From assembly GCA_943736015.1 (NCBI GenBank), contig OX031071.1, forward strand, positions 498,501-562,500: DNA of 64,000 nucleotides, written 5' to 3'. The notes beneath the pieces were generated by a model. That model worked only from the letters and a program-made list of their open reading frames with translations, had not been told where the DNA came from and ran no database searches. Positions 7,069 through 56,530 of this stretch are shown here, piece after piece. This DNA comes from Tridacna crocea (lineage: Eukaryota > Mollusca > Bivalvia > Cardiida > Cardiidae). The translations under genes were made by a program, and so were the position numbers. Every line of letters begins with the position of its first letter. Within the stretch, counting starts at the first letter, position 1.

Positions 7069-7297
7069 TTAACCCATTACCAAACGACAAAATTTTAGAC
7101 TGGTCCAAATTGAAAGCATTTGCAGACGACAAAATAAAAGTGACTGAAAATTCGAAATTTGTTTTGTGAAGGGTAGAAAACATTGTGGGAAAAGGAGAAA
7201 ATGCTGGTTACCAGCATTTTCTCCTTTTCCTACAATGTTTTCTAAAGGCTTCATTCCGAGGGGCGTCAAAAGTAGGGATTGTGTGGTAATGGGTTAA
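7069..7297 (+). mobile_element. Family A MITE, well-preserved copy
   Basis: TTAACCCATTACCAAACGAC starts at 7069 and GTGGTAATGGGTTAA ends at 7297. Both TTAA are intact. The core hairpin has about 34-bp arms around AATGCTGGTTACCAGCATT. The complementary strand contains the recurrent 66-codon reading frame discussed in the findings. Confidence 0.93.
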
Positions 7298-13599: not shown

Positions 13600-14781
13600 G
13601 AGATCCTATTTATTTCGTCGTCAGCATGCGCTCTCAATATGGACAAGTTCGATCGATTTTCTTTTCTATTTGTTAGAATTAAGAATGCATTGATCATTCA
13701 TTTAAGAAGATGCCACCTGCTGTAAGCGACCACTTTATTTACTTCACCAGGGTGACCTGTGTATACAGGTTGGACTGCATTTTGTTTATCAAAAAATAGA
13801 ATTTATTTTAACCTTTTCAGCAGCATAGCTGAAGAAGAAAAAAAAATATTACGTATGTCATAGATTAGGACCGCATCTGTAGAAATTGTATATAAGATCC
13901 CTGCTACGATCAAGATCAGATGAGGGTTCGTATACATGTGTATGATAGATCTCTGATCAGACTGGACAGGACATGCTGTGTGGTTTAGACTCTATACTGT
14001 ACGGATGTTTCACCAAGCCTGAAAGATGAGAAGTCGGAGTTTCCGTGGGATGTACATATTTTCCTCGGTCGTTTTTCAGAGTTTTATGACCCTTTACCAC
14101 ACAATGATGACTTTAACACCATTTAGGAAAATCCTTTTGAAAACATTAAAACCGCAGTGCTGTTATTTCAAAGTTATGTCAAAGGGGATAATAACTCCTT
14201 ATTTCAAAGTGTAAATATGAGATCAGACTGCATGGTCTGTGCAGTCTGATCTTGATCGACACTGCGTGCTAATCAGCATAGGGGTTAACAGGCAGTCTAG
14301 GTAAAGTGTTGTTTGAAATTAATGAGTTCTCTTAATTTAGCTTGTTTGAAAAGTGAAGAAACATTCTCGGCGATATTGTTATAAGTCCCCATCCTGAAAT
14401 ACGGTTTCCAAGTTACGAATTTTAGGTCCTGAGCTAGCTTGAAAAATAAAAAAAAAATCTGAGGGTTCGGAGTAAAAAAATGTATAGACATAAAATTTCA
14501 TTATAAGATAGAGATTCTATGTGCACAACACTATTGTGTTGGCTTATAATCAGACAGAGAAACGAATACAAGAAATGTCCAGCATTAAAAAATATATATT
14601 ATGCATCGAAGCAAACCTATGTGACGCTTTTTACTTTAGGGGCCGAATAATAAACTTTTACAGGTGCGACAAAATTAATGAGTCACCGCGGTGTAAAATG
14701 AACTCGTCTGTCAACTGACCTTACAGGTAAACAAAAAAATTGAATGAAAATTCCAGGTTACGTTTAAAATTTTCTTACACA
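13600..14781 (+). other. Intergenic region upstream of claudin-like gene B
   Basis: A short AGATCAGACTGCATG / CAGTCTGATCTTGATCG hairpin lies at 14219-14262, and a partial family A arm (CCCTTTACCACACAATGATG) at 14091. The promoter of the gene starting at 14782 should be here. I see no defensible core-promoter motif. Confidence 0.4.
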
Positions 14782-15049
14782 ATGAGTGGCGGATCGAATC
14801 TATGGTCTGCTCTGGGCTTTATTTCATGTATTTTATCGTGTTTATTAATCGTGCTGTCGTTTTCCACGGCATATTGGGTAGAGCCCGACGATGGAGAGGA
14901 AAGCAGCGCAAAATTCGAAAAAATCGGACTATGGGAGATGTGTTTTACTGGATATACGGATATCAGGGACAGTTTTGGCCGGGTCTACAATGGTTGTTGG
15001 TGGATATTTTCTCGTCAGTATGACAGAATCAGGAAATATTTGTTACCGA
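14782..15049 (+). CDS. Claudin-like gene B, exon 1 (full-gene annotation)
   Basis: I chose ATG 14782 (MSGGSNLW...) because an earlier in-frame ATG at 14743 adds a non-conserved leader. The donor is CCGA|GTAAGT at 15050. Exons 14782-15049, 16796-16948 and 21007-21299 total 714 nt and give a 237-residue four-helix protein. Segment 1 is about residues 10-30. Loop 1 has W32, GLW (49-51), C54 and C72 followed by WWIF, the claudin/PMP22 signature with the same 17-residue C-to-C gap as the divergent paralogue. The expected role is an epithelial (septate) junction membrane protein. Both introns are phase 1, as in the paralogue. The introns are packed with MITEs. Confidence 0.88.
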
Positions 15050-15094
15050 GTAAGTAAAACAAGCCTTCTTAATTCTAGTGTTTGTTAGTCGGAG

Positions 15095-19311: not shown

Positions 19312-20105
19312 AGGTGGGTTTTTAGAATTTTCACATCACAGGAAATTAAAAACTACATATGTCACTGAAATTTATATGAAAAAACAATACAAATCATCAG
19401 TAATTAAGAATCATAAAGTTACAAAAAATTTTTTTTGGGGTGGTATTCCCCTTAAAAGGCTACGTAGCCTCTTAACCCATTACCACACAATCCCTACTTT
19501 TGACGCCCCTAAGAAAGAAGCCTTTTGAAAACACTGTGGGAAAAGGAGAAAATGCTGGTAACCAGCATTTTCTCCTTTTCCCACAGTGTTTTCTACCCTT
19601 CCCAGAACAAATTTCAATTTTTCAGTCACTTTTATTTTGTCATCTGCTAATGCTTTCAATTTGGACCAGTCTAAAATTTTGCCGTGTGGTAAAGAGTTAA
19701 GCTATTTCTAGATTTCCCGCCGAATAGCAAAAAAGCATTGTGGGAATGTTAAGTAACTTACATGTGACTATATGACTATTAAATTCCATAACATAACAAA
19801 TATGTAATTATTTTCCATAATGTCTAGAACTTTGGATGCTAAGTTTGAAGCTTCGTCTGTATATTTCCGGTATGTAAATGAGGGAGTTGCTGGTGTAAAA
19901 AATAAGAATAGACTGTGTTTCCCGTTAGTGTTGACCTGGACTGCAGTAAATCTCTAATTTATCTAGTTGTCGGATGGTTTTCGACTACTGGGGTTTTATG
20001 AATGAAAATTATAAGGCTCTGGGAGTACATATATAAGGATGATTTTTTTGTATCCTTTTAAAATTTTCGTCCCAAAATCTGAAGGGCCGCCTTTAAGGCC
20101 TCTGT
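19312..20105 (+). repeat. Long dispersed repeat, copy 2
   Basis: This is a diverged copy of 11805-12560 in the same orientation. It carries a family A MITE at 19472-19700 exactly at the TTAA that is unfilled in copy 1 (CGTAGCCTCTTAA in both). It lacks the MITE found at about 12284 in copy 1. The pair therefore provides reciprocal filled and empty sites. Confidence 0.88.
19472..19700 (-). mobile_element. Family A MITE with an empty-site counterpart
   Basis: TTAACCCATTACCACACAAT starts at 19472 and GTGTGGTAAAGAGTTAA ends at 19700. The host repeat reads CCTCTTAA on the left and TTAAGC on the right, and the other host copy reads CCTCTTAAAC with a single TTAA. That shows a 4-bp TTAA duplication. 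Confidence 0.95.
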
Positions 20106-21341: not shown

Positions 21342-21570
21342 TTAACCCATTACCAGACGACAATATTTTAGACTGGTCCAAACTGAAAGCATTTGCAGAC
21401 GACAAAATAAAAGTGACTGAAAAATTGAAATTTGTTCTTGGAAGGGTAGAAAACACTTTGGGAAAAGGAGAAAATGCTGGTTACCAGCATTTTCTCCTTT
21501 TCCCACAGTGTTTTCAAAAGGCTTGTCCCTCAGGGGCATCAAAAGAAGGGATTGTGTGGTAATAGGTTAA
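21342..21570 (+). mobile_element. Family A MITE copy in the gene B 3' region
   Basis: TTAACCCATTACCAGACGAC starts 43 bp after the stop codon of claudin-like gene B, and GTGTGGTAATAGGTTAA ends at 21570. It is very probably inside the 3' untranslated region. If transcribed, its core would fold into a hairpin of about 34 bp. Confidence 0.92.
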
Positions 21571-31239: not shown

Positions 31240-31410
31240 TTTTATTTCATAAAATACTTACCTAATATTACAATATGGATTTCCTTTTTGGGTCCGCATA
31301 ATAAACCTTCCGGAAATACGGAAGTAAACAAACTTTGAGCATGCGCAACCTCACTACTTCCGTTTATCCTCGTGCTACTTCAGTTTTCCTTTTTCGGCGA
31401 AACAGTTCGC
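31240..31410 (+). repeat. DIRS left terminal inverted repeat
   Basis: TTTTATTTCATAAAATACTT, ATTACAATATGGATTTCC, CCTTCCGGAAATACGGAAGT, GAGCATGCGCAACCTCACTA and GGCGAAACAGTTCG all recur as reverse complements at 37590-37745. Small indels separate the two near 31285 and 31385. Confidence 0.92.
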
Positions 31411-31494
31411 AACGTTCTTGTGTTAAGACCTTCCGTGTGGTGCCATGTGGCTTTTTTATTTAATTTTGGACTTCATTTTTTTTTTTTTGCATTC

Positions 31495-34291
31495 ATGTCG
31501 GAAGACGGTGAATTCTCGGACGCTGCCAAGCTTTCGGAGCAGGATAGTGACGAGTCAGTGTCACGGTCCGAGACAGTTTTGCACAAAGCAAAACGAAAGA
31601 AAAAGAAATCTAGGTATTCCGAGTTGGAAATGAGATTCAATAAATTGGAATCATTGGTCACAAAGGCCTTTGAAAAGTTTGTACCCGAGACAAACTCGGC
31701 CGGCAGTAGTGGTGTGGATAAAAATTCTCGTCAATCCATGACAGATAGACACGATAGAACAGATACAGTGTCATTATTTGCCGATACAGACAATTTTGAC
31801 TCCTCGGATAATAACGAGGCAGAGAAAGAGAACAGTTTGAGTGACAAAACACAGAAATGTCTCTTTGAAATGTTTGGAGAAGATGCCATGGTCAAGAAAA
31901 AGACTGATAAAGAAGGCATTGTTTTGGATAAATCACAAGTTGAGGTGATTGAGAGCAGTTTCAGGTGTAATGAACCCAATTTCCTCACAGCTTTTTCAGA
32001 AGAGAATGTTGACTTATTTCCGTTAGATGAAGAATTTGAGAAGTTCTTGAAAGTTCCATCATTGGACTCTATAGTTGACTGCTGCTTAGTCAAAAGGTAC
32101 GGCAATAAGGCTTCTTTTGCTAGGAGCAAGCAGTGCTCTCAATAAGGGACCATTTCAGGAATTTTTGTAATTCCATGTTCAAATTTTAGGAATTTTTTTT
32201 AAAAATCAGGAATTTTTTTCCACATCGGTCAATGTGGTCTTGGGCTTATATTTATTTTGATTGTGTTGCGGAATGACCATCCTTATGTTGTGGTTACTGT
32301 AAAGTTTTATCAGGAAGACATGTCCTTAGAATAACTATATAATGGGGGTAAAAATGCATATACTCGTATATCTATAACAACACTGATCATGACATGTGAT
32401 TGGCTGACAATGATTGTCCATAGTAACTTAAGGTGGTACCATTCTCATGGAAAATAGCTATTTCCACGATAACATTATCCTAAAAAAGTTGCTTCAATTG
32501 AAAATGAGTATTATTGTACTAATTTGACCAAGCCACTTTTTCATTTTTATTTTCCTTTTAAGAATTATCACGTATAAATCTAGGGCCACTCTATTCTCAT
32601 TACAAAAGGAAACAATAATTACCTCCCTTTTCTGGAAAAAGAACAAAATATCAACAAATATCTTCAAGATGGACATCAAATAAATTTCTGGTCCACTAGA
32701 AATGTGCAAAAATATAATATCAGTATAAATCCTTATTTATTATCTGATAACAAATTTCATTCCATTTTGCGCTACAAGTGTTAGGATGGTAATAACTGAA
32801 GAATTATAACCATATCCATGTTTCATAATTGTTAAAATGACGTGTTGCACAATAGCCTGTTTCATTCGTCATTTGATTCAAACCAAGTGAACATGCGAAA
32901 CCATCCATCTTGTTTTTTGATGTGCATGAATTTCTTTCAGTTTCCTAATGAATTGTGGAAGACACGTATTTCAGACAGACGCGAATTCCTTCGTAACGAC
33001 GGTCACGTCGCACAATGATTCTTTCAAAAAAAAAATCCTTAAGTACGTTGCATAATTTCCATAAGAAATGCGTAACGAAACTATAATCTGCTGATTTTTT
33101 TAAAATAATTAGTAGATTTATTACATGTAGATCTACTCGATTATTTGAATTTCTTTCATGTTGCATTTTTTCAAACAAACAACATTCCCCGATCTTCGAT
33201 TGCATGCCTCTATTAATTGCATTTATCCATTAATTTCTATCGCTGCAGTCAAATTAAAGACGATTGATTACTAAGCGATCTTAAATTGATGGACCAATTA
33301 AACACGTACCATAATCCGGTCATAAATTGGATAAACAATCGCATATGTGTAATTGTCATCTGTACACTGTAATCTGGATCACCAAAACGCTTTAAAATGG
33401 CTATAGAGGCTCATTGCAAAGCGCCTTCCTTACATTGAATGGACGTTATCGAAGTTTTCCACAAGCGTCAAACCCTTTGTGCATTAAAAAAAAAACGTCC
33501 GGGTTGAAATTCTCGGACGTTTTTGTCATAATATGGACGTTAAAAAAACGTCCGACTTGGAAAATGCCGACGTTTTTTCTAAAAATTTGGACGTAATACA
33601 CGTCGACGTCCGCTTATTGAGAGCACTGAGCAAGGGCAAGGTTCTGTACACTCAACCATGTAAAATGGTGGATAAAATTTGTTTTAAAGGCCAGCATGCT
33701 GCTAGATTGGGTTTGATAATGCAGTGTTATGTTCAACAGAGTCTGGGAAATTTGTTGCAGTTTATTGAATCATCTTCTTTTGAAAAAGATTCTGCTATTA
33801 AGCAAGTAAAAGACATTTTCTCCATGTCCACCAAGGTATTAGATCAATTAGGAAGGACTGGTGCTTTGCATCATATCAGCCGTAGAACTGTTGCTATGAC
33901 AGATACTGGTTTATATGACCAACATGACAGTTTAGAGTTCGCTAATTTGCCATTGTCGGGCGAGGGTGTTTTTGGTCCTCAGTTAGAGACCTTGTTGAAA
34001 GAACGGAAAGAAAAGAAGAAACAAGTCAAGGACTTAGTACCAAATGTGCAGAGACAAAAAAGAAAATTCAGTGGTCAATCAGATTTCAGTAAACGTTTTA
34101 ACAATGAAAAAAGTGCAGATAAGCCAGCATCTGGACAATGGAACAATTTCCGTATCCCTAAAGTGCAGAACAGACCTGCTCAGGAGAGTCGTGGATTTGG
34201 AAGACAGAGAGGTTCTTTTCGGAACTCCAATCCAAGACGTTCAGCAACAAGTACGGGAAAGAGTCAGCTGGAGAGACCAGTTGACAAATGA
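31495..34291 (+). CDS. DIRS ORF1 (gag-like), interrupted by a transposon
   Basis: ATG 31495 (MSEDGEFSD...) is preferred to the upstream ATG at 31372, whose leader is hydrophobic and T-rich because it reads through the terminal repeat side. The N-terminal part is acidic and serine-rich with a KRKKKKSRYSELEMRFNKLE basic/coiled segment. After the insert, the frame continues with ...KGKVLYTQPCKMVDKICFKG, then SLGNLLQFIESSSF and a basic, Q/R-rich C-terminus ending RPVDK before TGA 34289-34291. That tail is typical of nucleic-acid-binding gag. Removing the insert and one target copy (1504 nt) puts both parts in the same frame. Confidence 0.82.
32131..33628. mobile_element. Non-autonomous TIR transposon, 1498 bp, in DIRS gag
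   Basis: CAGTGCTCTCAATAAG at 32131-32146 is perfectly inverted at 33613-33628 (16 of 16). AGCAAG flanks it on both sides (32125-32130 and 33629-33634), a 6-bp target duplication. Subterminal repeats differ at the two ends: AGGAATTTTT three times near 32157-32215 on the left, and (A/T)GGACGTTTTT/ACGTCC motifs several times near 33498-33600 on the right. There is no transposase. CAGTG ends would suit hAT, but the target is 6 bp rather than 8, so I leave the superfamily open. Confidence 0.9.
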
Positions 34292-34307
34292 CAAGGTAAA
34301 CACAATT

Positions 34308-36650
34308 GCAAAGTTTCCGGAGATACCTGTTGGGGGCAGACTGGTTCATTTTCTAAGCGAATGGGAACAAATTACACAGGATCAATGGGTTTTGGACATC
34401 ATAAGGGATGGTTACAAGTTGGAGTTCCAAAAGATACCTCCCTTCAACGGTGTGAAAGCAACCAATGTTCCTGTAAAACAACAAAATCTTTTAAAAGAAG
34501 AAATAAATTTTTTGTTAGAAAAAAATGCAATAGAGATTGGTCCTCCAAGTCAAATTCAAGAAGGTTTTTACAGTACATTTTTTCTCGTTCCAAAGAAAAC
34601 TGGAGGAATGAGACCAGTGATCAATTTAAAACCTCTCAATGTGTATCTCTGAAAACAGCACTTCAAAATGGACACTCTTACAAAGGTGATCAACATGGTA
34701 GAAAAGGGAGATTGGGCGATATCAATCGATCTAAAAGATGCATATCACCATATAATGATATTCAAGGGTCATCGGAAATTTCTGAGGTTTCAATTCCAAG
34801 GAGTGGCTTATCAGTTCCGTTGTCTATGTTTCGGTCCAACGAGTGCCCCGAGAACGTTCGTAAAGGTGATGGCAGTAATTGTCACTCATTTAAGGAAAAA
34901 CGGGCTTCGTTTGGCAAGTTACATAGACAACTGGTTGAATTTAAATCATTTGAGGCAAGATCTTGTCGAAAACAGAGATTTGTTGCTCAGTCTCCTTTAT
35001 CGACTAGGTTTAATGATAAACAAAGAAAAATCCCTTCTAGTTCCTGTGCAGGTTATAACTTATTTGGGAAGTTCATTCGATTTAAAGAAAGGCCTTGTCT
35101 TTCCAACACAGGAGCGTATTTACAGTCTGAGGAGAGCTGTACTAGAATTATTGGGGGGAAACATTACAGCCAGGCAATATTTAGTTGTGTTGGGAATAAT
35201 TGCATCATGTCTGGAGTTAATTCCAAACTCGAGACTGTTTATGAGACCTCTTCAACTCCATTTGTTACAAAATTGGAACCCAGCTCGTCTGCCTTTTTCA
35301 TACCAAATTGCTCTTACGTCACAAGTAGCTCATCATCTGAAATGGTGGTTAGATACTCAGAACATTTCCAAGGGCAGATCTTTAGTCAAACAGGTTTTTT
35401 CACTGACTCTAACCACAGATGCGAGTGACAAATGGGGATGGGGAGGTCACATGAACAATCTAACATGTCAGGGTCAATGGTCCTTAATGGAGAAAATGCT
35501 TCATATCAATTGTCTAGAGATGAAAGCAGTGAAGAACTGTTTACAGCATTTCCAATTGCATATTCAGAATCAAAATGTGTTGATTCATTCAGACAATACG
35601 ACTGTTTGTCAATATATCAATCGTCAGGGGGGAATGAAATCAACACAATTATGCAATCTGACAATGCAGTTGTGGGAATATGCTATAGCTCACAAAGTTA
35701 CTCTGAAAGCGGTTCATATAATGGGGAGCAAAAATATTCTTGCAGACATATTAAGTCGTCAGAGAGTTCTTGCTACGGAGTGGTCTTTGAGCATATCAGT
35801 GGTAGAGAAGTTATTTCAGATTTGGGGAAAGCCAATGATAGATCTTTTTGCCACAATAGAGAACAAGAAAGCACCTCTGTTTTGCTCTTGGATTCATCAT
35901 CAATTGCATGGCAGAACATGTTTGCTTATGCATTTCCCCAGTCCAATTAATTCCCAGAGTACTGAACCACTTTCAGCAGTATCGGTGCACAATGATATTG
36001 ATAGCCCCAATGTGGCCAAGACAACATTGGTATCCACAAATTCTGAAATTTTTAATAGCCTGTCCTGTAAGTCTCCCATGCCAAGTGGATCTGTTATCTC
36101 AGTGCAAGGGGAAAGTGATACTTCCAAATGTAGAGTCTCTACATCTGACTGCATGGCTATTATCGACAGAAAGTTCTCTTCAACAGGTTTTTCAGAAAAA
36201 ACTAGACAGCTATTATCAAAATCATGGAGAAAAGGGACCCAAAAGGATTATAGGAGTAAGTTTAGACAGTTCAATAGCTGGTGTGTTGAACACAAAATTG
36301 ATACCTATTCAGCATCTTTGGTAAATTGTGCAGAGTTCTTGACATTTTTATATGAGAAAGGTCTAAAATATAGAACTATAAATGGGTATAGGTCTATGCT
36401 TTCTTCTGTTTTAGCACCAATTGGGAATATACCAGTTGGTCAACATCCTCATGTAATAAGATTTTTGAAGGGAATTTTCAATGAAAGACCGCCTTTGAAA
36501 AGATTAGTTCCTGAATGGGATCTTCTTGTCATTCTAGGTTGTTTAAAAGAAAAGCCATTTGAACCCCTGAAAGATGCATCATTGAAGTTTCTTACCTGGA
36601 AGACTTGTTTTTTGGTGGCCATAACAACGTTTAGAAGATGTAGCGATTGA
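34308..36650 (+). CDS. DIRS ORF2: reverse transcriptase/RNase H part, broken
   Basis: In frame with 34668-36650, conserved text starts near 34308 (AKFPEIPVGGRL...HFLSEWEQIT). It continues with FYSTFFLVPKKTGGMRPVIN, and a TGA at 34650-34652 interrupts just before KMDTLTKVINMVEKGDW. The RT block holds SIDLKDAYHHIMI, FRCLCFGPTSAPRTFVK and the active-site box YIDN (usual Y-x-DD), so the second catalytic aspartate is Asn. RNase H follows (TTDASDKWGWGG, ...HSDNTTVCQYIN, ...KNILADILSRQ). Between about 35905 and 36190 the conserved methylase-like text jumps to the other two frames and back. Confidence 0.85.
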
Positions 36651-37139
36651 CAAGCTTTGCAGTTAGGTGAAGGTTTAGTAAACGTTCAAAAGCAGGGTGT
36701 CACTTTTATACGAACAGGTTTGTCGAAGTCTGATAGACCCAGTCATATGGGAAGAAACATTTTTGTGCCTCACTTGGAGAAAGATAAGAAGCTGGATCCC
36801 AAGAGAGCTTTGACTTATTATTTAAAAGCAACAGAACAGTTTAGAAATCAGAAGGGTAAGGACATTGTGAAACTGTTTTTGGCTATAAATAAACCTCATC
36901 AACCAGTTTCTTCAATTACTGTGTCTAGATGGCTGATAAGTTTAATAAAATATTGTTATAAAAAATTGAAGAAGTCTCATGGTAAAATCACAGGACATTC
37001 AACTAGAAGTGTAGGACCGTCCTGGGCCTTATTCAAGGGTGCATCTTTACAGCAGGTTTTGGAGGCTGCAGATTGGTCAAGGGAGACCACTTTCACAAGA
37101 CACTATTTGAAACCAGTGAATGTTGATTTCTTTGGTTAG
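36195..37139 (+). CDS. DIRS tyrosine recombinase, split by a TGA
   Basis: The N-terminal SAM-like domain is SSTGFSEKTRQLLSKSWRKG...YRSKFRQFNSWC and FLTFLYEKGLKYRTINGYRS. The first catalytic Arg is in TTFRRCSD, directly followed by TGA 36648-36650 where related elements usually have leucine (SDLQAL-type). The same frame resumes at 36651 and gives the HxxR box GHSTRSVG, the tryptophan of EAADWSRETT and the nucleophile Tyr in RHYL. It ends at TAG 37137-37139. The catalytic set R-HxxR-W-Y is therefore all present on either side of one nonsense codon. The enzyme would insert the circular cDNA without target duplication. Confidence 0.88.
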
Positions 37140-44797: not shown

Positions 44798-45487
44798 ATA
44801 CGCCCGTCGAAGACGGGACGTATTATGGGATCACCCGTGGCGGGCGGGCGGGCGTCCGGGCGGTGTCCAGTTCTTTGTCCGGAGCATATCTCCAAAACTA
44901 TACAAGCTAGGGTTATGAAATTTCATGGGTGGATAGATCTCATCGAGGCGGAGTGCAGTGCACAGGAATCATAACTCTTGCTCGCTTAATTTTTGAGTTA
45001 TTGCCCTTTGTTGTTTTTCATACTTAAATTTTGTCCGGAGCATATCTCCAAAACTATACTAGCTAGGGTTATGAAATTTCATGGGTGGATAGATCTCATC
45101 GAGGGGGAGTGCAGTGCACAAGAATCATAACTCTTGCTTGCTTAATTTTTGAGTTATTGCCCTTTGTTGTTTTTCATACTTGAATTTTGTCCGGAGCATA
45201 TCTCCAAAACTATACTACCTAGGGTTATGAAATGTCATGGGTGGATAGATCTTATTGAGGGGGAGTGCAGTGCACAGGAATCATAACTCTTGCTTGCTTA
45301 ATTTTTGAGTTATTGCCCTTTGTTGTTTTTCATACTTGAATTTTGTCCGGAGCATATCTCCAAAACTATACTAGCTACGGTTATGAAATTTTATGGGTGG
45401 ATAGATCTCATCGAAGGAGAGTGCAGTACACAAGAATCATAACTCTTGCTTGCTTAATTTTTGAGTTATTGCCCTTTGTTTTTTTTT

Positions 45488-45695
45488 TGTTACGGGAGAC
45501 CACTCCTTCCTGCATGGCATATACTCCCGATTTAAATACAATACCTGGCTACTGCGTCAGGGAGATATCTCTTTGGCTCAGTGGTTAGGGTATTGGCTTT
45601 GCGTCCGGGAGTTCGGAGTTCGAATCCCGCTCCGATCCTTATTTCTGCCATGCATTTATTCATTTGTTTCTTTGTTACGGACTTCGTTCGTAAGA
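45488..45695 (+). repeat. TRIM 5' LTR
   Basis: It starts TGTTACGGGAGACCACTCC and ends GTTACGGACTTCGTTCGTAA then GA. A possible TATA-like TTTAAATA lies at 45529-45536. The tRNA-like block covers 45569-45645. Confidence 0.93.
45569..45645 (+). promoter_or_regulatory. tRNA-like block with Pol III A and B boxes in the LTR
   Basis: A box TGGCTCAGTGG fits TRGYNNARNGG. B box AGTTCGAATCC fits (G)GTTCGANTCC at 10 of 11 positions. They are 44 nt apart, the spacing of a real tRNA. The acceptor stem does not pair well, so a functional tRNA is unlikely; an internal Pol III promoter is the more natural reading. The same block is at 45893-45969 in the 3' LTR. Confidence 0.8.
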
Positions 45696-45713
45696 TGGGG
45701 GCTCGTCCGGGAT
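45696..45713 (+). other. TRIM primer binding site (tRNA-Pro)
   Basis: TGGGGGCTCGTCCGGGAT directly follows the 5' LTR. This is the complement of the 3' end of tRNA-Pro including CCA, as used by many retroelements. Confidence 0.92.
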
Positions 45714-45800
45714 TGGCCATTGAGCCATTAATCCCATTTGTTGTCCAAAATCGGACTTCCTGCCTAATAAGGCTTTGAGTCATCAATAAATGATGACTTT

Positions 45801-45811
45801 AAGAGGGGGTG
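45801..45811 (+). other. TRIM polypurine tract
   Basis: AAGAGGGGGTG lies immediately before the 3' LTR. Confidence 0.75.
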
Positions 45812-46019
45812 TGTTACGGGAGACCACTCCTTCCTGCATGGCATATACTCCCGATTTAAATACAATACCTGGCTACTGCGTCAGGGAGATATCTCTTTGG
45901 CTCAGTGGTTAGGGTATTGGCTTTGCGTCCGGGAGTTCGGAGTTCGAATCCCGCTCCGATCCTTATTTCTGCCATGCATTTATTCATTTGTTTCTTTGTT
46001 ACGGACTTCGTTCGTAAGA
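45812..46019 (+). repeat. TRIM 3' LTR
   Basis: Identical to the 5' LTR over 208 bp by eye, with its own A and B boxes. Confidence 0.93.
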
Positions 46020-47069
46020 TTTTTCATACTTGAATTTTGTCCAGAGCATATCTTCAGAACTATAGTAGCTAGGGTTATGAAATTTCATGGGTGGATAGAT
46101 CTTACTGAGGGGGAGTGCAGTGCACAAGAATCATAACTCTTGCTCGCTTAATTTTTGAGTTATTGCCCTTTGTCATTTTTTATACTTGAATTTTGTCTGG
46201 TGAATATCTCCAAAACTATACTAGCTAGGGTTATGAAATTTCATGGGTGGATAGATCTCACCGAGGCAGAGTGCAGTGCAAAGGAATCATAACTCTTGCT
46301 TGCTTAATTTTTGAGTTATTGCCCTTTGTTGTTTTTTATACTTGATTTTTGTCCGAAGCATATCTCCAAAATTATACTACCTAGGGTTATGAAATTTCAT
46401 GGGTGGATAGATCTCATCGATGGGGAGTGCAGTGCACACAAATCACAACTCTTGCTTGCTTAATTTTTGAGTTATTGCCCTTTGTTGTTTTTAATACTTG
46501 AATTTTGTCCGGAGCATATCTTCAGAACTATAGTAGCTAGGGTTATGAAATTTCATGGGTGGATAGATCTCACTGAGGGCGAGTGCAGTGCACAAGAATC
46601 ATAACTCTTGCTTTCTTAATTTTTCAGTTATTGCCCTTTGTCATTTTTTATACTTGAATTTTGTCCAGTGAATATCTCCAAAACTATACTAGCTAGGGTT
46701 ATGAAATTTCATGGGCGGATAGATCTCATCAAGGGGGAGTGCAGTGCATAGGAATCATAACTCTTGCTTGCTTAACTTTTGAGTTATTGCCCTTTGTTGT
46801 TTTTCATACTTGAATTTTGTCCGGAGCATATCTCTAAAACTATACTAGCTAGAGTTATGAAATTTCATGGGTGGATAGATCTCATCACGGGGGAGTGCAG
46901 TGCACAGAAATCACAACTCTTGCTTGCTTAATTTTTGAGTTATTGCCCTTTGTTTTTTTTTCTTACTTGAATTTTGTCTGGTGCATGCCCCAGCTTTACA
47001 ACTTGGGGTAAGACGGGCGTATCTTGCGACAATTTGCCGCTCTTGTTTATTATGTGTTTTTTGTAAATT

Positions 47070-50454: not shown

Positions 50455-50951
50455 TGTTACGAGTCAGGCGTAACTAGAAAGAAGAAGCCAGCAACAAACG
50501 ATAACAATTAACAGAATTTATTAACAAAAATATCAAATAAACAGTGACAATATTACAATAGTACAAAACAATACCTTAGACGTTAAATTCAGAAGACAAA
50601 CTATTACAGTCTTACTTCCAATCTGATCCTGATCCAAACTGAATGTAATCCAGGCACTATTAATGACACAAACACAAGATAATCCCCACTGTAGTCTGGC
50701 AATCATGTATTAACTAGTGAACACTGAGATGTAAAAAGCCTTTCCTTTTATAATAACAGAGAAACTTCCAGAAAATTCATGTTAAAATCAGTTGCATAAC
50801 TTCTAGTAAACAGATTGTATAAAGGCCTGGAAACTTCCAGCACAATATTCCACAAGAGAGAATCCAGTTCTAAAAATAGCAACAGGGGAAAACCATTCAA
50901 AATAGATACACACATGAACAAAGCTAGGAATAACTGGGTATGTACATAACA
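50455..50951 (-). repeat. Gmr1-type element 3' LTR
   Basis: On the plus strand it runs TGTTACGAGTCAGGCGTAAC to GGGTATGTACATAACA. It matches 56034-56530 at every position I compared. Confidence 0.93.
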
Positions 50952-50978
50952 CTTCCCCCCTTGAAAAGAAAAAGAAAG
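50952..50978 (-). other. Gmr1-type element polypurine tract
   Basis: On the minus strand, a purine-rich AAGGGGGGAAG abuts the 3' LTR. Confidence 0.8.
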
Positions 50979-51175
50979 GTTTATGAAATAAATCTTTCTT
51001 TTTTGCAATATTATTTATATACATGTATGTGACACTTTATCTGAAGTATACATAGGAAATGACAAACTCAAATATTAATTATTTCAGACTAATGAAAATA
51101 ATCAAGGTAATGAAATTACAATTTAAAAGAAAAAACAGTTTAAACTTGATTTACGGAAAAACGACTATTGAAATT

Positions 51176-54100
51176 TCAAACTCTTGAAAGAGCATCTGGT
51201 ATAATGTTATCTTTCCCTTTTATGTGTCTTATGTCAAGATTAAACTCTTGAAGCAATAAACTCCACCTCAGTAATCTTTGATTCTTATTCTTAAGTTTGT
51301 GCAGAAAACTTAAAGGGTTATGATCACTGAATACAACAATTGGTGAAGTTGAAGAGGTTAAATAAACTTCGAACTGCTGGATTGCCAGAATTAAGGCAAG
51401 ACACTCCTTTTCTATGGTAGAGTAATTTTTCTGATGTTTGTTAAATTTCTTAGAAAAGTAACAAACTGGGTGATCAATACCATTATTATCTTCTTGTAAA
51501 AGAACAGCGCCAATACCAACATCACTTGCATCAACAGCTAATTTGAAACATTTGTCAAAATCAGGTGCCAAGAGAACTGGTGCGCTCTTTAGTATGGCTT
51601 TTAGACGATCAAATGCATCTTGACATTTGTCATTCCATTTGAACTTTGTGCTTTTCTTAAGTAAATTTGTTAAAGGTTCAGCAATACCCGAGAAATTTTT
51701 ACAGAATTTCCTGTAGTAGCCAGCCATACCAAGAAATCGCATCAGCTGTCTTTTACATTTAGGCACAGGAAACTCAGAGATAGCATTGACTTTAGCTTCT
51801 AAAGGTTTAACTTGACCCTGTCCCACAAGATGTCCTAGAAATGTTACAGTAGCATGACAAAATTCAGTTTTTGCAAGATTCACAGTCAGTTTCGCTTTAC
51901 TGAGTCTGTCGAAGAACTTCCTGATTCTTTGAAGGTGGTCACTCCAACTGTCTGAGTAGATGATGACATCGTCAATATATGCATCACAACCATCTAATCC
52001 ACATATAACGTTGTTTACAAGTCGCTGAAACGTTGCAGGAGAATTTTTCATCCCAAACGGCATAACTTTGTACTGGTACAGACCGTTTGGAGTAGCAAAG
52101 GCTGATACTTCTTTTGCTCTATCAGTCAGTGGAACTTGCCAGAATCCTTTTAGCAGGTCGAATTTGGTGACATATTTAGAATTTCCAACTTTGTCAATAC
52201 AGTCATCAATTCTTGGTATTGGAAAAGAGTCTGTTTTTGTCACAGAGTTCACCTTACGATAGTCAGTACACATTCTATAAGTTCCATTTGATTTGGGTAC
52301 TAATATACATGGTGAACTGTAATTACTCTGGCTAGGTTCAATAAAGTCATTTTCCAGTAAGTATTTTACTTCATCCTGGAGGTATTTCTGTTTCAAAGGA
52401 TTCATTCTATATGGATGTTGCTTTATTGGTTTAGAATCTTCCACAATGACATCATGATAGATTTTATCTGTTCTTGTGGGGATATCGGGAAATAAATGTT
52501 CATATTCATGTATCAACTGTTTCAGCTCTTCCTGCTGCGATGGTTCCAAGTGAGAAAGTTTGTTGTCGAGGTTTCTCAAAATATCAGAATTCTCAAGTTT
52601 AGATGGACCAGGATCAGATTTATCAATAAAGTCCGAATTTACTTCAAGATCAGATACATTTGATTCTTGTGGGACAGTGTTTACAACTGTAATTGGTTTT
52701 GAAATAGAGCTATCTCTGTCAAAGTATTCCTTTAACATATTTATATGACACATTTGTTTGTTTTTACGCCTTCCTGGAGTATTAATTATATAGTTCAAAT
52801 CACTTGTTTTCTTGTCAATAGTGTAGGGTCCAAAATATCTTGCCTGTAAAGGTCTGCCAGGTATTGGCAAAAGAGCAAGGACTTTGTCACCTGGTTTAAA
52901 TTTTCTATCTATAACATGGTTGTCATATCTTGCTTTCATTTTGCCCTGAGACGTTTTAAGATTAGACCTAGCAACCTCACATGCCCTAGACAGCCTATTT
53001 CTGAAGTCAGAAACATACTGTAGTAAATTCAAAGGTGTTTCATCATTTGAGAGAAATTTCTCTTTCAAAAGTTTTAAAGGTCCACGAACAGAATGGCCAA
53101 AAACTAATTCAAAAGGACTGAAACCAAGAGATTCTTGTACAGATTCTCTGGCTGCAAATAGTAACAAATGGATGCCCTCATCCCAATCTTTTTCAGTGTC
53201 AAAGCAATATGACCTTATCATATTTTTTAATGTCTGGTGAAATCTTTCTAAAGCACCTTGACTTTCAGGGTGATAAGCGGATGACCTATATTGCTTGATT
53301 CCTAATTCATGCATAACCTGTTGGAATATACCAGACATAAAATTTGACCCTTGATCAGACTGAACTGATTTTGGAAGACCAACAAATGTGAAAAATTTTA
53401 TAAGAGCTTTGACTATTGACTTTGTTTTGATGTTCCTTAAAGGAATAGCTTCAGGAAAACGTGTAGAAGTACACATAATTGTTAAGAGATACTCATTTCC
53501 TGACTTGGTTCGAGGTAAAGGACCAACACAATCTATAAGTATCCTACTGAAAGGTTCATCAAAAGCAGGAATAGGTTGTAATTGAGCTTTGGGAATGGTT
53601 TGGTTGGGTTTACCTACCATTTGACATGTATGGCAAGTTTTACAATATTTAGAGACATCTGATTTGAGACCAGGCCAATAAAAATGATTAATAATTTTGT
53701 GATAGGTCTTGTTTATACCTAGATGACCTGACATAGGACTTTCATGGGCTATACTTAGTATTTCATGACGATATGACTTTGGAACCACAATTTGGTGGTA
53801 AACAGCCCATTCATCATCAGCTGGGACATCAAATGGTCGCCATTTTCTCATAAGAATCCCATTCTTTATATAGTAACACATTGGGACTTGTGAAATTTCA
53901 TCTTCAGGTAAAGCCCTAAAAATTAATTTTGAAATCTCAGGATCAGTTTGCTGTTCCTGGATAAGCTGTGACTTTGACAGCGTGTCGTGACCTTGGTCAA
54001 TAGACCGTGGTGGTGAATGGCAAGACATTGACGAGTCTGTCTGAGTATCAGACAAACTGGGATCAAGAGACTTTTTAATCTCATTATTGAAATATTGACC

Positions 54101-55492
54101 GATAAAAGTATCCATCAAGTCAATGTCAGAGTTTGAGTTTTTCAAAATGGCCTTTTTAGCCATAGCTCGGGTAACTGCACAAGAAGGATACAAGTCAGGA
54201 ATTTCCTGCTCGATAGGGTCATCTGTTTGACCTATATTTGGTGTGTCAGTTACAAGTGGATTAACCACAACCTTATCTCCAGCTAAGTCATTGCCTAGCA
54301 GTAAATGGACACCTTTAAATGGTAAGGAAGGTTTAATACCAATAACCACAGGCCCAGTAACCAAATCTGATGACAAATTAACATGATGGAGAGGGATATT
54401 AACAGTTCCACACTCTACACCCTGAATAAGGACACTAGTACCGGAAGAAGTCTTCTCAGAAAAAGGCAGTATATCTGCTAAAATAAGAGACTGAGAAGCT
54501 CCTGTGTCTCTTAAAATTTTAATAGGGGTAGGTGGGCAATTATCACCTGAAAGTGATACAAAACCATTCAACATAAATGGTTCAAAAATCTCCATAGTAG
54601 AATCAGACTTGGGTTTTGTAACTATGTCAATTGTATTGGTTTTAATAGAAGACTGTGGCCTTGGTCTAAGAGTGGTGAGCCCTGTTGGCTTGGCTTCATC
54701 ACTTTCTAACTTCCTTTTTAATTTCAAACATTCAGAAACAAGGTGACCAGGTTTCTTACAATAGTTACAAGTGGGTCGAGATAAGGGATATTGACTTTTG
54801 GTTTCACTAGTAGAATTGGGTTTGGGTGTATTGGATTGACTGGGCATGCCAGATGAATTACCAGACGTAAATTTATTTTGGGGATGTGAGGAAGTAGGTT
54901 TTGCTTTAGCAATAAAAGAAACTTTATGTGTAAGGTAGTAATTATCAGCCAGACGAGCTGCTTCTTCTAAAGTTTCAACTTGTTTTTCGTCTAAGAATGT
55001 CTTAACATCAAATTGAATACAACGTTTGAATTCTTCAACTAACATAAGTTGTCTGAGTTTATCAAAATTTTGGTCTATTTTCTTAGAACAGCACCATCTA
55101 TCAAATAACTGTTCTTTGTTTCTAGCAAATTCAACATGAGTCTGGTTAGAATCTTTTTTACAATTTCTAAATTTTTGTCTATATGCTTCTGGGACCAGCT
55201 CATAACCTTTGAGAATAAGTTCTTTAACAGTCTCATAATGATGACATTGTTCAACACCTAGTTGTGTATAAATTTCACGAGCTTTGCCTATCAAAACACT
55301 TTGCAGAAGCAAAGTCCAGTGCTCTTTTGGCCAATTTAAGTTTTCTGCAACTTTTTCAAAGTGTAGGAAGTATTTATCAACTTCTTTTTCTTGAAATGGA
55401 GGAACAAGCCTAATATGTTTTGTAACATCGAAATTGTATTCAATCTTTTGCTTGGGCTGATTTGCTCTTTCTTGCATTTCTATTTCCCTCAT
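51176..55492 (-). CDS. Gmr1-type gag-pol polyprotein (gag-PR-INT-RT-RH)
   Basis: From the first ATG of this frame the protein is 1438 residues, but the frame is open further upstream into gag. Domains by approximate residue: gag core 30-200, CCHC zinc knuckle 242-255 (CNYCKKPGHLVSEC), and aspartic protease DTGAS 329-333. Next come the integrase HHCC zinc domain (about 583-623), the DD35E core D654, D713, E749 (SDQGSNF, HPESQGALE) and a GPY-type end near 890. Reverse transcriptase is about 1035-1215 with SKYVTKFDLLKGFWQV, MPFGMKNSP and YIDD (1172-1175). RNase H follows (AVDASDVGIG, EKECLA, SDHNPL) and ends DALSRV before the stop at 51176. All catalytic residues are present. No env frame was found. 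Confidence 0.93.
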   Translation of the reverse strand: MREIEMQERANQPKQKIEYNFDVTKHIRLVPPFQEKEVDKYFLHFEKVAENLNWPKEHWTLLLQSVLIGKAREIYTQLGVEQCHHYETVKELILKGYELVPEAYRQKFRNCKKDSNQTHVEFARNKEQLFDRWCCSKKIDQNFDKLRQLMLVEEFKRCIQFDVKTFLDEKQVETLEEAARLADNYYLTHKVSFIAKAKPTSSHPQNKFTSGNSSGMPSQSNTPKPNSTSETKSQYPLSRPTCNYCKKPGHLVSECLKLKRKLESDEAKPTGLTTLRPRPQSSIKTNTIDIVTKPKSDSTMEIFEPFMLNGFVSLSGDNCPPTPIKILRDTGASQSLILADILPFSEKTSSGTSVLIQGVECGTVNIPLHHVNLSSDLVTGPVVIGIKPSLPFKGVHLLLGNDLAGDKVVVNPLVTDTPNIGQTDDPIEQEIPDLYPSCAVTRAMAKKAILKNSNSDIDLMDTFIGQYFNNEIKKSLDPSLSDTQTDSSMSCHSPPRSIDQGHDTLSKSQLIQEQQTDPEISKLIFRALPEDEISQVPMCYYIKNGILMRKWRPFDVPADDEWAVYHQIVVPKSYRHEILSIAHESPMSGHLGINKTYHKIINHFYWPGLKSDVSKYCKTCHTCQMVGKPNQTIPKAQLQPIPAFDEPFSRILIDCVGPLPRTKSGNEYLLTIMCTSTRFPEAIPLRNIKTKSIVKALIKFFTFVGLPKSVQSDQGSNFMSGIFQQVMHELGIKQYRSSAYHPESQGALERFHQTLKNMIRSYCFDTEKDWDEGIHLLLFAARESVQESLGFSPFELVFGHSVRGPLKLLKEKFLSNDETPLNLLQYVSDFRNRLSRACEVARSNLKTSQGKMKARYDNHVIDRKFKPGDKVLALLPIPGRPLQARYFGPYTIDKKTSDLNYIINTPGRRKNKQMCHINMLKEYFDRDSSISKPITVVNTVPQESNVSDLEVNSDFIDKSDPGPSKLENSDILRNLDNKLSHLEPSQQEELKQLIHEYEHLFPDIPTRTDKIYHDVIVEDSKPIKQHPYRMNPLKQKYLQDEVKYLLENDFIEPSQSNYSSPCILVPKSNGTYRMCTDYRKVNSVTKTDSFPIPRIDDCIDKVGNSKYVTKFDLLKGFWQVPLTDRAKEVSAFATPNGLYQYKVMPFGMKNSPATFQRLVNNVICGLDGCDAYIDDVIIYSDSWSDHLQRIRKFFDRLSKAKLTVNLAKTEFCHATVTFLGHLVGQGQVKPLEAKVNAISEFPVPKCKRQLMRFLGMAGYYRKFCKNFSGIAEPLTNLLKKSTKFKWNDKCQDAFDRLKAILKSAPVLLAPDFDKCFKLAVDASDVGIGAVLLQEDNNGIDHPVCYFSKKFNKHQKNYSTIEKECLALILAIQQFEVYLTSSTSPIVVFSDHNPLSFLHKLKNKNQRLLRWSLLLQEFNLDIRHIKGKDNIIPDALSRV

Positions 55493-55566
55493 TCTTAATT
55501 GAAATTCTCTCTCCTTCTCTCTCTCTTCTCTTTCTTCTCTGTGTCTTTCCCTTTCTCTTTCTATTT

Positions 55567-55833
55567 CTAACTGTCTGATCTGAATTTTAATTCAAGTTCT
55601 TTCGAACTTGAAACTGACTGAACGTCAACTATCAGGGAAAGCGCATTTTCATTGAAAATCTCCTCATCAACAAAATATTGTACCAAAATGTTCTTAATTT
55701 CATGTTTACGCATTGAAGATTTTATTTCAGACAATTTATAGAACTTAGCAAGATTAAGCAAGTCAGTCTTTTTACCCAAATTCAGTAACTCCACAGATGG
55801 TTCAGCCGTAAATTTATCTAAGTCAAAAGACAT
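55567..55833 (-). CDS. Gmr1-type gag N-terminus, one frame out
   Basis: This 88-codon frame begins MSFDLDKFTAEPSVELLNLG and continues KSSMRKHEIKNILVQYFVDE, a gag N-terminal segment common in this type of element. It runs to a stop at 55567. The long frame downstream (charged coil of E/R repeats, then MREIEMQERAN...) is offset by one. The switch can be placed at the run of four A on the coding strand (plus TTTT 55585-55588). One missing base or a -1 slip would join them. Confidence 0.8.
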   Translation of the reverse strand: MSFDLDKFTAEPSVELLNLGKKTDLLNLAKFYKLSEIKSSMRKHEIKNILVQYFVDEEIFNENALSLIVDVQSVSSSKELELKFRSDS

Positions 55834-56010
55834 GTTTGTCTGTTGCTGGATTCAAGTACAAAATTGTATTATAATTACTGATTAGTAGACGAATGCGTTA
55901 GTCTATTTTCCAATCGATGGATAGTCCAAAATGGAAAACAAATACGTTAGTCTATTTTCCAATCGATGGATAGTCCAAAATGGAAAACAAATACGTTAGT
56001 CTATTTTCCA
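55834..56010 (-). repeat. Leader with three short direct repeats
   Basis: ACGTTAGTCTATTTTCCAAT followed by CGATGGATAGTCCAAAATGG occurs at about 55890, 55948 and 55992 (last one partial). The period is 58 and then 44 bp. It lies between the primer site and gag, where packaging signals usually sit. Confidence 0.85.
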
Positions 56011-56028
56011 ATCCCGGACGAGCCCCCA
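56011..56028 (-). other. Gmr1-type primer binding site (tRNA-Pro)
   Basis: On the minus strand TGGGGGCTCGTCCGGGAT starts five bases after the 5' LTR, an 18-nt complement of the tRNA-Pro 3' end. It is identical to the TRIM primer site at 45696. Confidence 0.92.
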
Positions 56029-56033
56029 ATTTC

Positions 56034-56530
56034 TGTTACGAGTCAGGCGTAACTAGAAAGAAGAAGCCAGCAACAAACGATAACAATTAACAGAATTTAT
56101 TAACAAAAATATCAAATAAACAGTGACAATATTACAATAGTACAAAACAATACCTTAGACGTTAAATTCAGAAGACAAACTATTACAGTCTTACTTCCAA
56201 TCTGATCCTGATCCAAACTGAATGTAATCCAGGCACTATTAATGACACAAACACAAGATAATCCCCACTGTAGTCTGGCAATCATGTATTAACTAGTGAA
56301 CACTGAGATGTAAAAAGCCTTTCCTTTTATAATAACAGAGAAACTTCCAGAAAATTCATGTTAAAATCAGTTGCATAACTTCTAGTAAACAGATTGTATA
56401 AAGGCCTGGAAACTTCCAGCACAATATTCCACAAGAGAGAATCCAGTTCTAAAAATAGCAACAGGGGAAAACCATTCAAAATAGATACACACATGAACAA
56501 AGCTAGGAATAACTGGGTATGTACATAACA
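56034..56530 (-). repeat. Gmr1-type element 5' LTR
   Basis: Identical by eye to 50455-50951 over 497 bp. TG...CA termini on both strands. Confidence 0.93.

Follow-up and report, generated by a model that had tools for sequence, protein, structure and literature searches.

Helenus elements (TRIMp3 group) are TRIMs that carry a tRNA-like sequence in the LTR, and they include 51 bivalve families (Kojima 2024, PMC10886601). They range in size from 311 to 1263 bp, the molluscan members in Table 1 of that work all come from Pteriomorphia, and molluscan Helenus sequences were aligned to tRNA-Lys (PMC10886601). An ancient SINE insertion into an ancestral LTR is proposed as their origin, and their transcription by Pol III is expected and as yet unproven (Kojima 2024, PMC10886601). 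Cassandra of plants and Ajax of nemerteans are also TRIMs with a Pol III-type promoter in the LTR, which in their case is of 5S rRNA origin (PMC10886601). Another group, biv-TRIM, is described in the accessible part of its source from bivalves including Cardiidae, with repeats of 202-218 bp, tandem arrays and solo repeats, an internal domain of 77-80 bp that holds the segment TGATCCCAAAGGAC, no clear primer-binding site (PBS), and a polypurine tract (PPT) GGGGAGA (Satovic et al. 2019, PMC6934838).

The window, which is the whole 64,000-nt stretch of Tridacna crocea DNA analysed here (contig OX031071.1), contains on its + strand a 532-bp element (45488-46019) built from two identical 208-bp LTRs (45488..45695 and 45812..46019), which begin with TGTTACGG and end with CGTAAGA, and a 116-bp internal domain without a gene (45696..45811). 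A reading made from the sequence only had taken the LTRs as identical and the element as gene-free; the identity extends over all 208 bp, and the longest ATG ORF has 83 aa and is antisense. Each LTR carries an A box, TGGCTCAGTGG (45574..45584 in the 5' LTR, 45898-45908 in the 3' LTR), and a B box, GTTCGAATCC (45618..45627 and 45942-45951), with 44 nt from start to start, which supports the earlier proposal of a mollusc LTR miniature equipped with a pair of Pol III boxes of tRNA type. Upstream of the A box of the 5' LTR lie a TATA-like segment, TTTAAATA (45531..45538), which is a putative TBP or Pol II site, and the palindrome GAGATATCTC (45562..45571). The centre begins with a 19-nt PBS complementary to the 3' end of tRNA-Pro (45696..45714) and closes with a putative PPT, AAGAGGGGG (45801..45809), located 2 nt upstream of the 3' LTR. 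The sole AATAAA on the + strand of LTR or centre (45785..45790) precedes the 3' LTR. A search of a phage collection gave no match.

The element is almost certainly a TRIM of the Helenus type, a placement by features in which the named Helenus families are compared by description only. Like them it is a short gene-less LTR element, whose 532 bp fall within the 311-1263 bp range, with tRNA-like A and B boxes in the LTR and a block that in both is unlikely to be a working tRNA. It also shares with them a PBS for a tRNA 3' end (tRNA-Pro is among those of the bivalve families), a PPT, the 4-bp target duplications of the animal members, solo LTRs and Gypsy as supposed partner. The difference lies in the host, since Tridacna belongs to Cardiidae, Imparidentia, Euheterodonta, and is thus a heterodont bivalve, whereas the molluscs of Table 1 in PMC10886601 are Pteriomorphia only. 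The opinion of the sequence-only reading that no such mollusc family had been described does not stand, because Helenus, with its 51 bivalve families, is of the same kind (Kojima 2024, PMC10886601). Cassandra and Ajax differ by their 5S rRNA origin, while the boxes here are of tRNA type and Rfam scans of the element gave no 5S match. biv-TRIM resembles the element in its bivalve hosts, in its repeat length (208 bp here), and in its tandem arrays and solo repeats; the accessible part of its description gives a shorter inner domain (77-80 bp vs 116 bp) without a clear PBS and does not mention a tRNA-like block (PMC6934838). The segment TGATCCCAAAGGAC, searched with up to three mismatches, has five matches in the window and none inside the element, and identity with biv-TRIM is rejected on this absence and on the 116-bp centre. 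The searched literature from 2024 on, which leaves most subscription journals outside, contained no Helenus TRIM paper besides PMC10886601, and the best matches on Tridacna, LTR retrotransposons and miniatures show no such element in titles or abstract openings. The element belongs to a known kind and represents a new family within it, from a host group absent from the Helenus listing; it extends tRNA-promoter TRIMs to a heterodont bivalve, and it is suited to a direct test of whether the RNA of such TRIMs is made by Pol III.

The assembly comprises 18 chromosome-sized contigs, the next size down being 57 kb. Its mitochondrial contig C31 (29,009 bp) carries an ND5 with 99% identity to that of Tridacna crocea, vs 94% to T. 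squamosa and 79% to T. derasa; a claudin fragment used to identify the host gave no match. A whole-genome search with the element, in which 40 of 516 candidates were scored, listed 42 matches, and the 41 full-length rows analysed are biased toward young copies because they are best-scoring matches. Sixteen of these rows, one of them the window copy, have exactly the same 532 bp and lie at different sites with different flanks; 22 of the others differ from the window copy by one mismatch, one by two, and two by one gap. As the differences never exceed two mismatches or one gap, the tRNA-like block is present in all 41 rows, so neither of the doubts expressed earlier, that the block might be absent elsewhere or that further copies might not exist, is borne out. 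LTR starts (first 97 bp, up to three mismatches) number 868 genome-wide and centres (97-bp pattern, up to three mismatches) 1777, with reversed-pattern controls of 0 for both. A genome search with only the 86-bp block had no match, which carries no information because that tool passes over very common words. The excess of centres is at least partly explained by sister subfamilies, because the ungapped pattern misses a 2-bp indel found in the sister LTRs (93-98% like the window LTR) of five loci that have a centre and no LTR-start match; all five fetched loci carry such LTRs, and none of them shows a different LTR on the same centre. Eight apparently unpaired LTRs were also fetched: two are solo LTRs with 4-bp duplications (L064, CAAA; L066, CTTC), five lie in two-LTR elements, among which L065 has a truncated 3' LTR and L070 no matching duplication, and one is in a tandem array (L067). 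The element is a multi-copy family with target duplications, solo LTRs and tandem arrays, and its many near-identical copies indicate that it was probably mobile until recently.

Duplications of 4 bp flank 36 of the 41 full-length rows, and together with the many copies of the same structure and the two solo LTRs they give the genome search that had been suggested from the sequence the outcome of a family. The five rows without a clear 4-bp duplication are the window copy, L008 (3 bp), L010 and two in L039; L010 and both L039 rows are parts of tandem structures, and a TAAA stands on either side of the complete L039 array. The window copy splits a 156-bp tandem repeat (44874..46986) and lies between TTTT at 45484..45487 and at 46020-46023; owing to a T run within this host repeat, its duplication can be read as TTTT or TTTTT, and the length is set at 4 bp from the other copies. 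tRNA-derived SINEs have no LTRs and combine LINE-type insertion with duplications of variable length, in contrast to the LTRs, solo LTRs and fixed 4-bp duplications of the present element.

Strict box pairs (TGGCNNAGTGG then GTTCGANTCC, with 20-60 nt between) occur in the 64 kb, on either strand, only at these two places, which confirms the claim of an A and a B box 44 nt apart in each LTR, and 20 shuffles contain none. Looser boxes (TRGYNNARNNG, GWTCRANNC) return the same two pairs alone, with 0.25 expected per strand, and the window copy fails two other versions of the consensus, with GG at the A-box end or GGTTC in the B box. The shuffles and the identical copies at different sites speak against chance similarity or local duplication, for which no supporting point was found; the copies elsewhere refute this explanation, whose probability is negligible.

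Divergent relatives are present in 3 of 19 random 10-kb pieces (L046, L051, L053). A search with the L053 relative, in which 40 of 3939 first-look candidates were scored, gave 78 rows; 20 places were fetched from the best 27, the query itself and six others being left out, and L053 was added to make 21 older copies. Conservation, taken as the mean fraction of these 21 copies that bear the window base, is 0.94 in the A box and 0.92 in the B box, 0.68 in LTR 98-104 and 0.34 in LTR 105-130 between the boxes, and 0.58 in LTR 141-155 and 0.79 in LTR 156-185 after the B box. Upstream, it is 0.91 at the LTR 5' end, 0.61 in LTR 23-40, 0.92 in the TATA-like segment and 0.81 in LTR 55-86, and it is 0.87 in the LTR end and primer site and about 0.9 in the centre. 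Ranked by conservation among 199 LTR 10-mers, the A box is 4th and the B box 37th. The majority base of the column agrees with the window copy at all 11 positions of the A box and all 10 of the B box, at 18 of the 33 between them and at 10 of the 15 that follow (B box against both neighbouring stretches, Fisher P 0.009). With at most one mismatch, each box is found in 18 of the 21 older copies and both together in 15, and the distance from A to B is 49-66 nt in these copies vs 44 nt in the window copy. The boxes are therefore retained as well as the backbone, and part of the block was replaced or has diverged. Their retention fits promoter function, but the copies compared are mostly decayed, and the replacement may be a single event. 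One older relative (L046:3041-4858) has a 1.8-kb internally repetitive insert in its centre.

ARAGORN and Rfam find no tRNA in the block of the window copy, which folds no better than shuffles (z 0.42), and the block as a working tRNA is unsupported. L088, one of the 20 fetched older copies, is called tRNA-Lys(TTT) by ARAGORN and has 26.5 bits to the tRNA model, below its cut-off of 29 bits; the other fetched older copies, L046 and L053 give no tRNA call. The covariance-model check proposed earlier thus fails for the window copy and gives a sub-threshold score in an older one. This older copy supports a tRNA origin of the block, and its tRNA-Lys call and the tRNA-Lys alignment of Helenus together support the Helenus-type identity. 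A and B boxes without a cloverleaf are typical of tRNA-derived SINE heads. The resemblance of the block to such heads would suit the insertion of a SINE into just one LTR of one copy, or its position between chance repeats, a reading that is very improbable: the block is in both LTRs of 41 full-length rows, 4-bp duplications enclose the whole element in 36, and the boxes are also found in older copies. Insertion into a single copy is refuted by the block in both LTRs and by these older boxes; an ancient SINE insertion into the ancestral LTR of the present family is possible, as Kojima (2024, PMC10886601) proposes for Helenus.

Pol III transcription of the element is likely from its sequence, and rearranged copies bear on where its RNA would start. 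In place of the 5' LTR, L104 has LTR 75-208 with an inverted copy of it in front; the inverted repeat has 104 nt, 100 of them complementary, and its centre, at LTR 79/80 (window 45566/45567), falls within the palindrome GAGATATCTC, the presumed region of RNA start. A 36-nt pattern of the fold-back junction (up to three mismatches) matches 116 loci, at the same sites on both strands, with a control of 0; L104 is the one examined in full. Such junctions would result if minus-strand strong-stop DNA folded back where it copies the 5' end of the RNA. On this reading transcription would begin a short way upstream of the A box, a position as compatible with Pol II acting from the TATA-like segment (45531) as with Pol III. 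Six of 20 older copies have the palindrome in exact form; it may itself favour folding, which would make the fold-back point independent of the RNA end, and the 116 loci may be the multiplication of one folded copy.

The + strand of the 532 bp contains no TTTT, with 8.4 expected after shuffling (P about 0.0003); for the 324-bp unit P is about 0.01, and 20 of 1255 window pieces of 324 bp likewise lack it. The 3' flank is readable by exact match in 30 of 40 loci, and it has TTTT in 27 (median 50 bp) and none within 200 bp in 3. Since TTTT occurs in the LTR, from the A box onward, in 15 of 22 relatives, terminator avoidance as a family rule is rejected, and the absence can be no more than a trait of the young lineage. 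Neither AATAAA nor ATTAAA occurs in the LTR. The rival view of an ordinary TRIM, in which the TATA-like box at 45531 drives Pol II transcription and the tRNA-like block persists in the LTR as a SINE relic, would agree with the TTTT of those 15 relatives and with the conservation of the TATA-like segment (0.92), which lies about 30 nt before the inferred start; it would not explain why the boxes are kept and the intervening LTR 105-130 is not, nor an LTR without polyadenylation signals, the sole AATAAA being upstream of the 3' LTR, and we regard it as possible but rather doubtful.

The 22-bp T-arm/acceptor end of tRNA-Pro occurs at six places in the genome, four of which were fetched: three are tRNA-Pro(AGG) genes and the fourth is a chimera, L112. 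With CCA added, the 3' end of the genomic tRNA-Pro genes pairs with the 19 nt at 45696, which bears out the exact tRNA-Pro complement reported from the sequence. The tRNA-Pro pattern with CCA has L112 as its single genomic match. This chimera consists of LTR 60-116, a TGCG overlap, tRNA-Pro 37-75 (39 nt, with encoded CCA) and the reverse complement of the LTR 3' end, exact over the 14 nt in the stretch available; its junction is unique, and a second match with two mismatches looks like an ordinary LTR with a small deletion. A template switch by DNA synthesis that had come from the LTR end and traversed the primer tRNA would give such a structure. L112 is probably a fossil of tRNA-Pro priming, an assembly artefact being possible, and the family itself is very probably primed by tRNA-Pro. 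The fold-back copies and the tRNA chimera may preserve a natural record of the RNA start and of the priming tRNA. They can also be read jointly, in an improbable scheme in which the block is renewed from the primer tRNA (L112 being one event) and the 116 fold-backs mark the RNA start: synthesis would pass the primer site into the tRNA and switch into the tRNA-like block via a few matching bases, the A and B boxes would persist while the stretch between them is replaced, and the fold-back junctions would locate the start of the RNA immediately before the A box.

As a whole, these observations are probably best explained by a Helenus-type TRIM that uses Pol III, tRNA-Pro and a Gypsy element acting in trans. 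Pol III, through the A and B boxes, would initiate near 45560-45567, some 7-15 nt before the A box, which would place the promoter inside the transcribed, repeated part of the LTR. The RNA would pass the centre and the 3' LTR, with no TTTT en route in the window copy, and would terminate in flanking DNA; that this Pol III-made RNA is the template is somewhat favoured. tRNA-Pro would anneal at 45696 and prime minus-strand DNA, with one genomic fossil in support, and the reverse transcriptase and integrase of a presumed Gypsy partner would act in trans to give the 4-bp duplications. Besides the element structure, the copy numbers, the 4-bp duplications, the solo LTRs and the tRNA-Lys call, the points counted for this explanation are the boxes kept against LTR 105-130, the lack of TTTT on the + strand and of AATAAA/ATTAAA in the LTR, L112 and the 116 fold-backs. 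Counted against it are the TATA-like box at 45531, which would also permit Pol II, TTTT in 15 of 22 relatives, the rank of the B box (37th of 199), the poorly kept LTR 23-40 (0.61), a window-copy block without a tRNA-like fold, and a fold-back point that may stem from the palindrome.

A candidate partner is a Gypsy element on the - strand of the window (50455-56530), which has identical 497-bp LTRs (TGTTATG...CGTAACA), a 1438-aa ORF, a 4-bp duplication CTCC and a tRNA-Pro site 5 nt past the LTR. Its integrase lies upstream of the reverse transcriptase, an order that the accessible part of PMC6238403 assigns to the Gmr1 clade. It shares with the TRIM 21 bp at the PBS, nearly all of which is tRNA complement.

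Other features are present in the window. ORFs on the + strand at 31372-37139 belong to an element that we take to be DIRS-like, with a reverse transcriptase at 34668-36650 and, at 36657-37139, a weak tyrosine-recombinase match (16.7 bits, below the cut-off of 27.1). An abundant repeat of about 229 bp occurs in both orientations (e.g. 7069-7297, 19472-19700, 21342-21570) and is possibly MITE-like; a similar sequence at L053:2553-2620 forms a long hairpin with sub-threshold Rfam microRNA matches. An exon-like ORF at 14740-15057, which has a claudin/PMP22 domain (PF13903), is probably a piece of a host gene.
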